A program made the translations under genes and the position numbers. Under the pieces are notes generated by a model. That model saw nothing but the letters and a program-made list of their open reading frames with translations. It was not told the origin of the DNA and made no database searches. From positions 1 to 30,084 of IMG/VR virus record IMGVR_UViG_3300037070_002798: DNA of 30,084 nucleotides, one strand, 5' to 3'. Positions 20,115-23,855 of the stretch are shown piece after piece (the stretch's first letter is position 1; each line of letters opens with the position of its first letter). This DNA comes from a virus.

Positions 20115-20272
20115 GCACACGCGTCAATGGATTCCCCGACCGCAGGTTCAGCAACGAACGCATCGAGCGCGAAGCCGACTCACTACTGCGCCTGCTCGCC
20201 CGAGCACATCGCATCATGGACCAGCGCGGCTACCCACCCGTCAACCGCCCCGTCTACGAGGTGGCAGCATGA
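20111..20272 (+). CDS. 53-aa basic helical protein
   Basis: Starts by ATGA overlap. It has an Arg/Glu-rich helix (SNERIEREADSLLRLLARAHR) and a short Pro-rich end, as in small dimerising or DNA-contacting proteins. Too short to classify. Confidence 0.55.
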   Translation: MSTRVNGFPDRRFSNERIEREADSLLRLLARAHRIMDQRGYPPVNRPVYEVAA

Positions 20273-20481
20273 GGTGGTGGGCGTGCGACGAGGGCCACTC
20301 GAACTCACTGCGCACCAACCGCACCACCGGCATCACATGGGATACCTGCCTGCAATGCAAGCCCTGCCTCGATCGGTACTACCGCATCGAGATCGATGTC
20401 GACGAGGATGATCCCGACCGCCTCGTCCCTCCCCCCGAACCCGATCACCAATCCCACACCACCAAGGAGACACACCCATGA
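20269..20481 (+). CDS. 70-aa Cys-containing small protein
   Basis: Begins MRWWACDEGHSNSLR and has CLQCKPC in the middle, which with the early Cys and His could bind zinc. The C-terminus is Pro/Asp/His-rich and disordered. It overlaps the next gene's ATG by 4 nt, placing the AAGGAG of that gene inside its coding end. Confidence 0.6.
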   Translation: MRWWACDEGHSNSLRTNRTTGITWDTCLQCKPCLDRYYRIEIDVDEDDPDRLVPPPEPDHQSHTTKETHP

Positions 20482-21509
20482 GTCACGAGTACGACACCGG
20501 ATTCCAGGTCCGCAAGGCAGCCTGGCACGGTCTCGGCAACACCCTTGCCGAAGCACCGAAGAACATCGACGAGGCACGCGAAGCGGCCGGCGTCACATGG
20601 GAGCCGCGCAAGGTGCCCGCCTACCAGCAGGTGCAGGAAGTCATCGGCGTCAAGCCGATCTTCAACGAGTGGGGCCACCCGATCGACTTCGAGGAGGTCA
20701 CACAGACTGCCTACGTCGAGGTGCCCAACGCTGCGCTCATCGAACGCGACGACACCGGCGTCGTCATCGGTCACGGTGTCACCCAGGAGTACGAGCCGAT
20801 TCTCAACCAGACCATGTTCGAGATCTGTGAGGCGCTCGCCGACGAGGGTGCTCAGTGGGAGACCGGCGGCTCGCTGCGTGGAGGCTCAGTGGTTTGGGCC
20901 CTGATGCAACTGCCCGAGCCCTTCATCCTGCCCGGCGACAACAGCGAGTCGCATCCGTTCGTCAGCGTGGTCAACCACCACGACGGCAGCGGCTCGATGC
21001 GTGCCCAGTCGGGCAACGTCCGCATCGTGTGCATGAACACCAACATGATCGCTGACTTCCAGAGCCAGCGCGCGCAGACGCAGTACACCTTCCGGCACAC
21101 GAGCAACGTGCAGGAACGGATCAACGAAGCACACGAGGTCATCCGTGGCACACGCTCCGACTCCGCCGGCTGGCGAGAGATCGCTGCCGAGCTCCACGGC
21201 TATCACGTCGATGCCTCGGTGTACGCCAACTTCTTGGATGCGTTCTTCCCACTGGACCCCGGCAACATCCACTCCACCCGAGTCGTCAACAACTGGGAGA
21301 ACGCTCGAGCTCGGTTCACCCAGGCATACAACAGCGCCACCAACGAGACCTTGATCGGCACCGGGCTGGGTCTGCTGAACACAGCGACCGAGTACGCCGA
21401 CCACCTGCGCGGCTACCGCAGCCGCGACACGTACATCACCCGCACCATCCTGCGCCCGGAGCCGATGAAGGCTCAGGCGTTGAAGATCATCCGGGAGGTG
21501 TGCGTCTGA
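20478..21509 (+). CDS. DUF932 / TIGR03299-family phage-plasmid protein
   Basis: A 343-residue protein of the DUF932 (TIGR03299, phage/plasmid-like) family. The diagnostic start is GFQVRKAAWHGLGNTL. The family core includes YEPILNQTMFEICEAL, GGSLRGGSVVWALMQL, VSVVNHHDGSGSMR, and VRIVCMNTNMIA. The family is widespread in phages and plasmids; no biochemical role is firmly established, though DNA-linked functions are often assumed. Length is normal for the family. AAGGAG precedes the ATG in the recurring ACCACCAAGGAG context, suggesting strong translation. Confidence 0.9.
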   Translation: MSHEYDTGFQVRKAAWHGLGNTLAEAPKNIDEAREAAGVTWEPRKVPAYQQVQEVIGVKPIFNEWGHPIDFEEVTQTAYVEVPNAALIERDDTGVVIGHGVTQEYEPILNQTMFEICEALADEGAQWETGGSLRGGSVVWALMQLPEPFILPGDNSESHPFVSVVNHHDGSGSMRAQSGNVRIVCMNTNMIADFQSQRAQTQYTFRHTSNVQERINEAHEVIRGTRSDSAGWREIAAELHGYHVDASVYANFLDAFFPLDPGNIHSTRVVNNWENARARFTQAYNSATNETLIGTGLGLLNTATEYADHLRGYRSRDTYITRTILRPEPMKAQALKIIREVCV

Positions 21510-22632: not shown

Positions 22633-22820
22633 TGCACGTCCTTGCTGCCATCATCGCTGCTGGATTCAATGGCTATCCCGTCACTGCGGCAACCTATGGC
22701 ATCAGCCGCGAGTTCATCGAGAGCGGAGGGCACCGTCTGTGGTTCGTGATGATCTTGGACCGTGACTGCCCTGCTGATCAGATGTACGGGATGAAGCCCT
22801 CGACCATCCGCAGTGTGTAA
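22632..22820 (+). CDS. 62-aa hypothetical protein
   Basis: Starts by TGATG overlap: MHVLAAIIAAGFNGYPV. The N-terminal hydrophobic stretch is short and could be a core strand or helix. Its stop codon TAA is embedded in the operator at 22815-22830. Function unknown. Confidence 0.6.
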   Translation: MHVLAAIIAAGFNGYPVTAATYGISREFIESGGHRLWFVMILDRDCPADQMYGMKPSTIRSV

Positions 22821-22830
22821 GCTGTTGCAC
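22815..22830 (+). promoter_or_regulatory. Palindromic operator upstream of Acb2/Tad1-like gene
   Basis: GTGTAAGCTGTTGCAC, one base from the perfect palindrome at 23820. TAAGCT (22818-22823) can serve as a -10 box. The Shine-Dalgarno AAGGAGA and ATG of the next gene come 24 bases later, so this transcript would have a leader, unlike that at 22303. Confidence 0.6.
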
Positions 22831-22853
22831 CAACCCAACCACCAAGGAGAAAC

Positions 22854-23057
22854 ATGCAAGAGCACATCATCCAGTTCTTCCGCTACGACCATCTGCCGGA
22901 ACATCTGCAGCTGATCAGTCAGCCCTTCCATGACATGGCTCACGATCTCATCGCCAACCTGCCGAGGAACCCGGAGCGCACCGTCGCTCTACGCAAGCTG
23001 CTCGAATCGAAGGACGCAGCAGTTCGCGCATTCATCGCGCAGGAGGTGGACCAGTGA
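22854..23057 (+). CDS. Acb2/Tad1-hairpin-like protein, candidate anti-defence sponge
   Basis: A 67-residue, two-helix protein with the pattern F-x-Y-D-H-L-P-x-H-L-Q (residues 9-19), PFHDMAHDL, then NPERTVALRKLLESKDAAVRA in two short runs (39-59). I recognise this as the small family labelled Acb2/Tad1 hairpin domain, common in actinobacteriophages. Characterised Acb2 and Tad1 proteins bind cyclic-nucleotide signals of CBASS or Thoeris defence and so block it. Whether this member binds a ligand is not shown. Regulation: an operator lies just upstream. AAGGAGA precedes the ATG. It overlaps the next gene by 4 nt. Confidence 0.7.
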   Translation: MQEHIIQFFRYDHLPEHLQLISQPFHDMAHDLIANLPRNPERTVALRKLLESKDAAVRAFIAQEVDQ

Positions 23058-23410
23058 GCCTCTCTCCATTCGACGGTCGCGATGTCATCACATCCAGCGT
23101 CGCCATCCGCAACGCCGGCGACGGGCTCAGCCAAGCCATGTCGATCGAGCACACCGAGTTGCACCACGGCCAGACGGTCTACGTGGTCCTCGAGTGCGAG
23201 GTCACAGCCGTTGAGTTCCCGGTCATCAAGGACACCGAGAGCCTGAATCGCAAGCACATCCTGCGCGCCGGCGTCGCCACGTTGGTCAGCAAGGCCGACG
23301 TTGACGTGGCCATCAGCGCGCAGCGCAAGAAGATCGACGAAGCCAAGGGCATCCAAGCCCTGCCACTCGGCGAGGATCCAGACGATGATCCTCTCGGCGT
23401 CGACGACTGA
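23054..23410 (+). CDS. Conserved phage protein, 118 aa, upstream of nuclease gene
   Basis: The pattern RNAGDGLSQAMSIEHTELHHGQ, YVVLECEVTAVEFPVIKDTESLNR, HILRAGVATLV resembles an unnamed protein conserved in actinobacteriophages, usually close to a Cas4-like nuclease gene. Mostly beta, then a helical end and an acidic tail (DPDDDPLGVDD). Start overlaps the previous stop. The stop TGA at 23408-23410 touches the first base of the tRNA-like 3' segment. Function unknown. Confidence 0.75.
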   Translation: MSLSPFDGRDVITSSVAIRNAGDGLSQAMSIEHTELHHGQTVYVVLECEVTAVEFPVIKDTESLNRKHILRAGVATLVSKADVDVAISAQRKKIDEAKGIQALPLGEDPDDDPLGVDD

Positions 23411-23475
23411 GGTCGGGGGTTCGAATCCCTCCAGCAGCTTGCTGCTGTAGCTCAGCCAGGTAGAGCAGGGCTCGT
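23410..23475 (+). ncRNA. Circularly permuted tRNA-like gene (3' half before 5' half)
   Basis: Upstream segment: variable loop AGGTC (23410-23414), T arm GGGGG-TTCGAAT-CCCTC (23415-23431), and acceptor 3' strand CAGCAGC (23432-23438). After TT comes the downstream segment: acceptor 5' strand GCTGCTG (23441-23447), T8-A9, D arm GCTC-AGCCAGGTA-GAGC (23450-23466), then AGGGCTCGTG. The acceptor strands pair over all 7 bp. Consensus positions (U8, A14, G18G19, TTCGAAT) are in place. The anticodon stem cannot be closed by simply joining the ends: only CAG/CTG pairs. So it may be a permuted tRNA needing unusual processing, a tRNA mimic, or a remnant of an att-type event. RNase P and RNase Z cuts would free the acceptor ends. 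Confidence 0.6.
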
Positions 23476-23796
23476 GTCCGCCGGATCCGAAAGACCGGCG
23501 GGCACTGCCTGTTTTGCACCCTTGGCATCGGCCAATGGAGTCTCACCTCTCTCACGCACGGCAACGATGTACTTCCCACCCGCCGGAGTGACGTGTACCG
23601 AGCCGATCATCGCGTTCCAGTCGACGAAGCCTGCCTTGCGCAGCACCTCGAGCTGTCGAACGATGAGCGTGTGAGAGACCCGCATCAGCCGTGACACCTC
23701 ACTGGCAGTGCACGCCTTGCGCTCGGCTCTGATCTCCTTGATTGTCTCGAGGATCTCGCACGCGTACTGGTCACCTGTTGATCGGGTTCGTGTCAT
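23452..23796 (-). CDS. Winged-helix transcriptional regulator (small MarR/ArsR-like fold)
   Basis: A 114-residue protein with an N-terminal helix (GDQYACEILETIKEIRAERK), then a winged helix-turn-helix: CTASEVSRLMRVSHTLIVRQLEVLRKAGFVDW with a wing GSVHVTPAGGKYIVAV (residues about 28-78, in these two runs). It should bind DNA as a dimer. I prefer the ATG at 23796, 8 nt after a TACAGT -10 box (leaderless); a GTG at 23814 is possible. It is the only leftward gene in the area and lies beside the perfect palindrome GTGTAAGCTGTTACAC, so it is the best candidate for the regulator of the four sites. Its last 18 or so codons are antisense to the terminator and tRNA-like 5' half. Confidence 0.75.
   Translation of the reverse strand: MTRTRSTGDQYACEILETIKEIRAERKACTASEVSRLMRVSHTLIVRQLEVLRKAGFVDWNAMIGSVHVTPAGGKYIVAVRERGETPLADAKGAKQAVPAGLSDPADTSPALPG
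23466..23515 (+). terminator. Strong hairpin terminator following the tRNA-like 5' half
   Basis: GTGTCCGCCGG (23474-23484) pairs with CCGGCGGGCAC (23495-23505), 11 bp with one wobble, loop ATCCGAAAGA. CAGG(G)C (23466-23471) pairs with GCCTG (23507-23511) below it, and TTTT follows at 23512-23515. It would end the rightward transcript between convergent genes. Its base uses the nucleotides that would be the tRNA anticodon stem. Confidence 0.65.
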
Positions 23797-23804
23797 GGAA
23801 GCAC

Positions 23805-23835
23805 ACTGTAACACCCAAGGTGTAAGCTGTTACAC
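23805..23835. promoter_or_regulatory. Divergent promoter-operator of regulator and nuclease genes
   Basis: The perfect palindrome GTGTAAGCTGTTACAC (23820-23835) overlaps a rightward TAAGCT -10 box. The leftward -10 TACAGT (23805-23810) carries a further half-site, CTGTAACAC, read on the plus strand. Both directions share the 30-bp region, so one protein could control its own gene and the nuclease operon. Confidence 0.65.
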
Positions 23836-23855
23836 ACCACCACCAAGGAGAGCAC

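Follow-up and report, generated by a model that had tools for sequence, protein, structure and literature searches.

A virus record of 30,084 bases (the window, meaning the whole stretch of DNA analyzed) carries a short element in which a perfect T arm and a perfect D arm flank a fully paired, capped acceptor-like stem. This element is very likely the tRNA-like part (the effector module) of a bacterial Y RNA of the YrlA type. The original prediction had read the same bases as a circularly permuted tRNA gene in a phage and had listed a tRNA mimic with a capped acceptor stem as its second option. The observation itself is confirmed, but the permuted tRNA gene is not supported, and the mimic turned out to be the right choice: the best model is YrlA, and the family is capped throughout. 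The claim of a permuted tRNA in a phage is therefore replaced by that of a phage Y-RNA tRNA-mimic module that annotation pipelines miss. We are confident about what the module is but not about its Ro partner, because neither a Ro-binding flank nor a Ro-like gene is visible.

Y RNAs have been reported before in mycobacteriophages (PMC12282133, which cites Chen et al. 2014) and in phages (PMC7765460); the YrlA type and its carriage by phages are already known. What is unusual here is a module without a visible Ro60 partner protein or Ro60-binding arm. Some copies have no recognizable Ro60 partner, which makes solo action of the tRNA mimic testable. The comparison set also suggests DUF2828 as a second family of Ro60-like partners.

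The module and its genomic setting

The window is a linear record with high G+C content and is possibly a fragment. It encodes tailed-phage markers (terminase, SSB, RusA, DUF932, and Gp3-like genes), its terminase is distantly related to those of Streptomyces phages, and it represents an actinobacterial-type phage. The features of the locus are as follows.

23054 to 23410, + strand: protein gene upstream of the module, 118 aa, not assigned to a family
23394 to 23487, + strand: match to RF02553 (YrlA), 44.4 bits, under the gathering score of 69
23395 to 23399, + strand: CGGCG, which may pair with CGCCG at 23479 to 23483 as the 5' side of a basal (Ro-side) stem; from the YrlA alignment, uncertain
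23403 to 23476, + strand: scores 62.8 bits against covariance model R1 (phage tRNA-like module), which was built from 35 sequences, the window among them
23411 to 23414, + strand: GGTC, linker resembling a variable loop, on the 5' side of the T arm; abuts the TGA stop (23408 to 23410) of the 118-aa gene
23415 to 23431, + strand: T arm, GGGGG-TTCGAAT-CCCTC; stem strands 23415 to 23419 and 23427 to 23431
23432 to 23438, + strand: CAGCAGC, strand of the acceptor-like stem homologous to the tRNA 3' side
23439 to 23440, + strand: TT cap closing the acceptor-like stem
23441 to 23447, + strand: GCTGCTG, strand of the acceptor-like stem homologous to the tRNA 5' side; 7/7 Watson-Crick
23448 to 23449, + strand: TA linker from the acceptor-like stem to the D arm
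23450 to 23466, + strand: D arm, GCTC-AGCCAGGTA-GAGC; GCTC/GAGC stem invariant in 35/35 modules
23452 to 23796, - strand: convergent winged-helix/ArsR-like regulator gene, 114 aa
23474 to 23505, + strand: 11-bp hairpin, GTGTCCGCCGG...CCGGCGGGCAC, between the convergent genes; fold of -20.3 kcal/mol

Direct reading of positions 23410 to 23466 (+ strand) bore out the order originally described: T arm, seven-pair acceptor stem capped by TT, and D arm, with the halves permuted. The A of AGGTC (23410) is also the last base of the upstream gene's TGA, so the stop codon contacts the module. As we read the locus, the module belongs to the 3' UTR of this short phage gene. The strand opposite the D arm and the hairpin encodes the final codons of the regulator. 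In the window sequence, the acceptor strand is not followed by a CCA, and no promoter-like site was found. ARAGORN reported no tRNA anywhere in the 30,084-base window, and Rfam at gathering thresholds reported nothing. Therefore, automatic annotation would miss the module.

The hairpin at 23474 to 23505 is probably a terminator or 3' end. It competes with the putative basal stem, and in a 136-nt fold (z of -2.6) its extended form also pairs with the D-arm strand. This makes the module and the terminator-like fold mutually exclusive in the predicted transcript.

Three syntenic relatives have the same regulator gene and an upstream gene that is 74% identical (over residues 1 to 110 only). None has the module in the same interval, where another hairpin takes its place. 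Therefore, the module was gained here or lost there, in the manner of a cassette.

Relationship to YrlA RNAs

In a permissive search with 451 bases, the top Rfam family for the locus was RF02553, the bacterial Y RNA YrlA (44.4 bits; E = 9e-9). Ro-linked copies also score below the 69-bit gathering score (Sparky, 36.6; Methylosinus, 49.9). As described in PMC8394870, YrlA consists of a Ro-binding stem at its base and a tRNA-like domain made of D, T, and acceptor arms. The window element shares with the YrlA RNAs of rsr-yrl-rtcB operons the permuted T arm, capped acceptor-like stem, and D arm, the GGTC linker, and the invariant GTTC.A..C and TAGCTCA...GAGC. However, it scores below the gathering cutoff, its Ro-binding basal arm is unrecognizable, rsr and rtcB genes are not seen, and its TT cap is among the shortest.

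The same module was found in mycobacteriophages Sparky and Rey, Pseudoalteromonas phage J2-1, and Xanthomonas phages XaC1 and 10KY502B (two clear copies and one weak copy in the last) and at about 28 sites in IMG/VR contigs. The phage copies are unannotated, except that 10KY502B is partly annotated as tRNA-Thr. Phages widely carry the tRNA-mimicking module of bacterial Y RNAs.

We aligned 35 phage and viral modules. Selection had required at least six acceptor pairs, which makes the overall figure of 97.5% of cells paired partly circular. The two-sided changes and the acceptor-pairing control described below are free of this circularity. Two-sided changes occurred at 11 pairs, in 135 cells compared with 46 in shuffles, and the covariation score was 0.64, against 0.15 when shuffled and at most 0.18 when slid. 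In the T-arm helix, 98.3% of cells were paired and four of the five pairs had changed on both sides; in the acceptor-like helix, the values were 95.5% and all seven pairs. The GTC of the linker is almost invariant. In every relative, the acceptor-like stem is capped, by 2 to 12 nt, and several of these caps are TTCG or GCAA. All 16 pairs and the invariant positions are intact in the window copy. A search with the exact pattern of the window's own module matched only L121 among the viral contigs and nothing in the genome contigs, and a pattern that included its 3' flank had no matches.

Genes and flanks that accompany related modules

A TROVE/Ro60 protein is encoded in 16 of the 22 tested viral contigs with the module and also in Sparky and 10KY502B, making 18 module-bearing contigs in all. 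In mycobacteriophage Sparky, the module adjoins the Ro60 gene, whose product matches Deinococcus radiodurans Rsr (2NVO) with 374 bits. Ro-linked phage modules have TACTTC or GGTTAY 14 to 22 nt upstream of the T arm. The contigs whose modules have these flanks (18) carry TROVE, and DUF2828 was found in none of them. A plasmid BLAST with the window locus found copies on Methylosinus and Xanthomonas sacchari plasmids (Rfam YrlA scores of 49.9 and 72.1, respectively), where they lie between a Ro60-type vWA gene and rtcB. Their position corresponds to the classical rsr-yrl-rtcB arrangement, as known from Salmonella (PMC7790460). The Methylosinus copy and the window have in common GACGAC..GGTC upstream and GAGCAGGGCTCG downstream.

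In phage 10KY502B (L005:518-626 and 974-1078; record positions 20178 to 20738), three consecutive YrlA-like RNAs precede the TROVE gene, and one of them is misannotated as tRNA-Thr. In Rey (L003:747-1122 and 1916-2339), a tmRNA, a GOLLD RNA, and a Y-RNA-type module share a stretch of about 1.6 kb in a single tRNA array.

The modules of J2-1, XaC1, L042, L066, and L128 are without TACTTC/GGTTAY and instead have an ACAGCAA-type flank together with a DUF2828 gene. A fresh search for ACAGCAA-flanked modules found DUF2828 in 11 of 15 new contigs (10 above the cutoff) and TROVE in none; with near-identical contigs collapsed, DUF2828 was present in 9 of 11. The module regions with an ACAGCAA-type flank and DUF2828 (PF11443), none of which has TROVE, are L004, L006, L042, L066, L128, L169, L171, L176, L192, L197, L214, L230, and L259. 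In most ACAGCAA RNAs, a stem of 7 to 10 bp closes around the ACAGCAA, and its sequence varies by contig. The exception to the division is the second module copy of a TROVE contig, L054, which also has the ACAGCAA word. An AlphaFold2 model of one DUF2828 protein, of modest confidence (pLDDT of 68), had its best PDB matches to the TROVE domain and Ro60, including the Ro60 of Thermus phage phiLo. DUF2828 may therefore be a candidate second Ro60-type family of Y RNA partners, with its own RNA flank.

Several other copies, two in L016 (4964 and 7338, reverse strand) and those at L089:1132 and L003:1495-1574, have neither known flank, and TROVE, DUF2828, and vWA were not detected with them. The two L016 copies have a common GAGCT..TGCTTATTTCTA flank and perhaps represent a third class.

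The Ro side of the window module

The window belongs to neither flank class. Upstream of its module, neither TACTTC/GGTTAY nor ACAGCAA was found, and the 30-kb contig (a linear record, possibly incomplete) has no TROVE, Ro60-vWA, vWA, or DUF2828 gene. The Y RNAs beside the Ro60 genes of Sparky and Xanthomonas phage 10KY502B contain the same module, also phage encoded and intergenic, but a TROVE gene accompanies them and their flanks are GGTTAT or GGTTACTTC/TACTTC; the window has neither such a gene nor such flanks. The putative basal stem was no better than shuffles (z of -0.4), although Ro-linked Y RNAs fail the same duplex-energy test.

YrlA is a substrate of DusA and TruB and ties Rsr to PNPase, according to PMC8394870. 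By analogy, we propose that the upstream gene's transcript, either whole or trimmed to a short RNA, would fold into the two arms and the capped acceptor stem between them. Such a fold would mimic the elbow and acceptor arm of a tRNA while offering neither ends that can be aminoacylated nor an anticodon, and tRNA-acting or RNA-decay factors (TruB, DusA, and PNPase) might recognize it as described for YrlA. If the host, or an unsequenced remainder of the phage, provided a Ro60-type ring, the factor would be tethered in a normal Y RNA RNP. Without Ro60, the module alone would be a decoy.

Two readings of the missing Ro side are compatible with the identification of the element as a Y RNA module. 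One is that the window holds a decaying or truncated Y RNA, which was gained by recombination between the convergent genes, lost its Ro-binding arm or had it overwritten, and is intact only because the event was recent. Besides the lack of a Ro flank and a Ro gene, this would account for the mismatched 27-43 closing pair, for the absence of an adjacent basal helix (unlike the other 34 of the 35 modules compared), and for the competing hairpin that takes up the D-arm strand. The absence of the module from the syntenic relatives also favors it and would fit either decay or recent gain. Even so, all 16 pairs and the invariant positions are intact, and a likeness to a Y RNA from an rsr-rtcB operon is still evident in the sequence immediately on either side. 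We regard decay as possible but rather unlikely.

The other reading is that the module works independently of Ro and, by itself, sequesters a tRNA-acting host enzyme (e.g., an anticodon nuclease or PNPase) during infection. A perfect module beside an unrecognizable Ro part is what would be expected, and a competitive-inhibitor role has been proposed for the YrlA tRNA-like domain (PMC7790460). Mycobacterium phage Rey is a further parallel: its genome is complete and has the module, yet TROVE, DUF2828, and vWA were not detected there. Rey differs in having an adjacent 6-bp basal helix and an array of tRNA, tmRNA, and GOLLD genes, whereas the window module stands alone. However, an anticodon nuclease would find no anticodon arm to read, and the host may supply Ro60 or a Ro gene may lie beyond the contig. 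We think that a Ro-independent decoy is unlikely. The more specific proposal, in which a tRNA mimic that has lost the Ro60-binding half of a Y RNA engages a tRNA-acting host enzyme without a Ro60-type ring, either as a stand-alone decoy or as part of a 3' UTR, seems to us unlikely as well.

Comparison with tRNA genes

The Y RNA identification also has to be weighed against an origin from true tRNA genes. Circularly permuted tRNA genes of algae and archaea likewise place the 3' part before the 5' part, and circularization restores a complete tRNA, including the anticodon arm. The order of the halves and the seven acceptor pairs would fit such a gene, processed here to a functional tRNA. However, the original prediction had already recognized that plain joining does not restore the anticodon stem, and this is correct for the whole family: neither the window nor any relative has an anticodon stem or loop. 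Moreover, the acceptor-like stem is kept capped with many different caps, the top Rfam model is YrlA rather than tRNA, and relatives adjoin Ro60 genes. This makes a permuted tRNA gene (such genes are cited in PMC10085705) very improbable.

The chance expectation for such an arrangement in 30 kb is about 1e-13. The real null is instead the junction of two tRNA genes, since the order of parts there looks identical. Our control was a scan of viral contigs for T arms with a D arm after them, in which acceptor pairing was not required and pairs were counted at a fixed offset, and it yielded 107 distinct places. Tandem tRNA pairs had seven acceptor pairs in 0 of 68 cases and six in 3, whereas places without a tRNA on either side had six or seven in 21 of 25. 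With its seven pairs, the window goes with the latter group. Therefore, the acceptor pairing is not the product of two adjacent tRNA remnants, and the original statement that two unrelated tRNA fragments would not pair in this way holds. Nor is the pairing peculiar to the window: the possibility that no related genome keeps it, which would have told against the prediction, fails across the family, in which all seven acceptor pairs covary, and stands only in the sense that the syntenic relatives have no module at the same site. Thus, although tRNA arrays are common in phages and BLAST matches land on tRNA-tRNA junctions, a chance pairing in the remnant of two tandem tRNA genes or an attachment site is scarcely credible, given the control, the family-wide covariation, and the lack of a tRNA gene elsewhere in the window.

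Other observations at the locus

A permuted group I intron-exon arrangement, which also places the 3' exon before the 5' exon, was considered and rejected, as a coding gene reaches the module and Rfam finds no intron. Matches of the D arm and its flank to Streptomyces plasmids were set aside, as they fall inside genes for HTH proteins. Two similar operator-like palindromes of the GTGTAAGCTGTTACAC type lie at 22816 to 22835 and 23818 to 23836, upstream of 22854 and 23856, respectively. The winged-helix regulator, whose gene lies at 23796 to 23452, probably binds to them.
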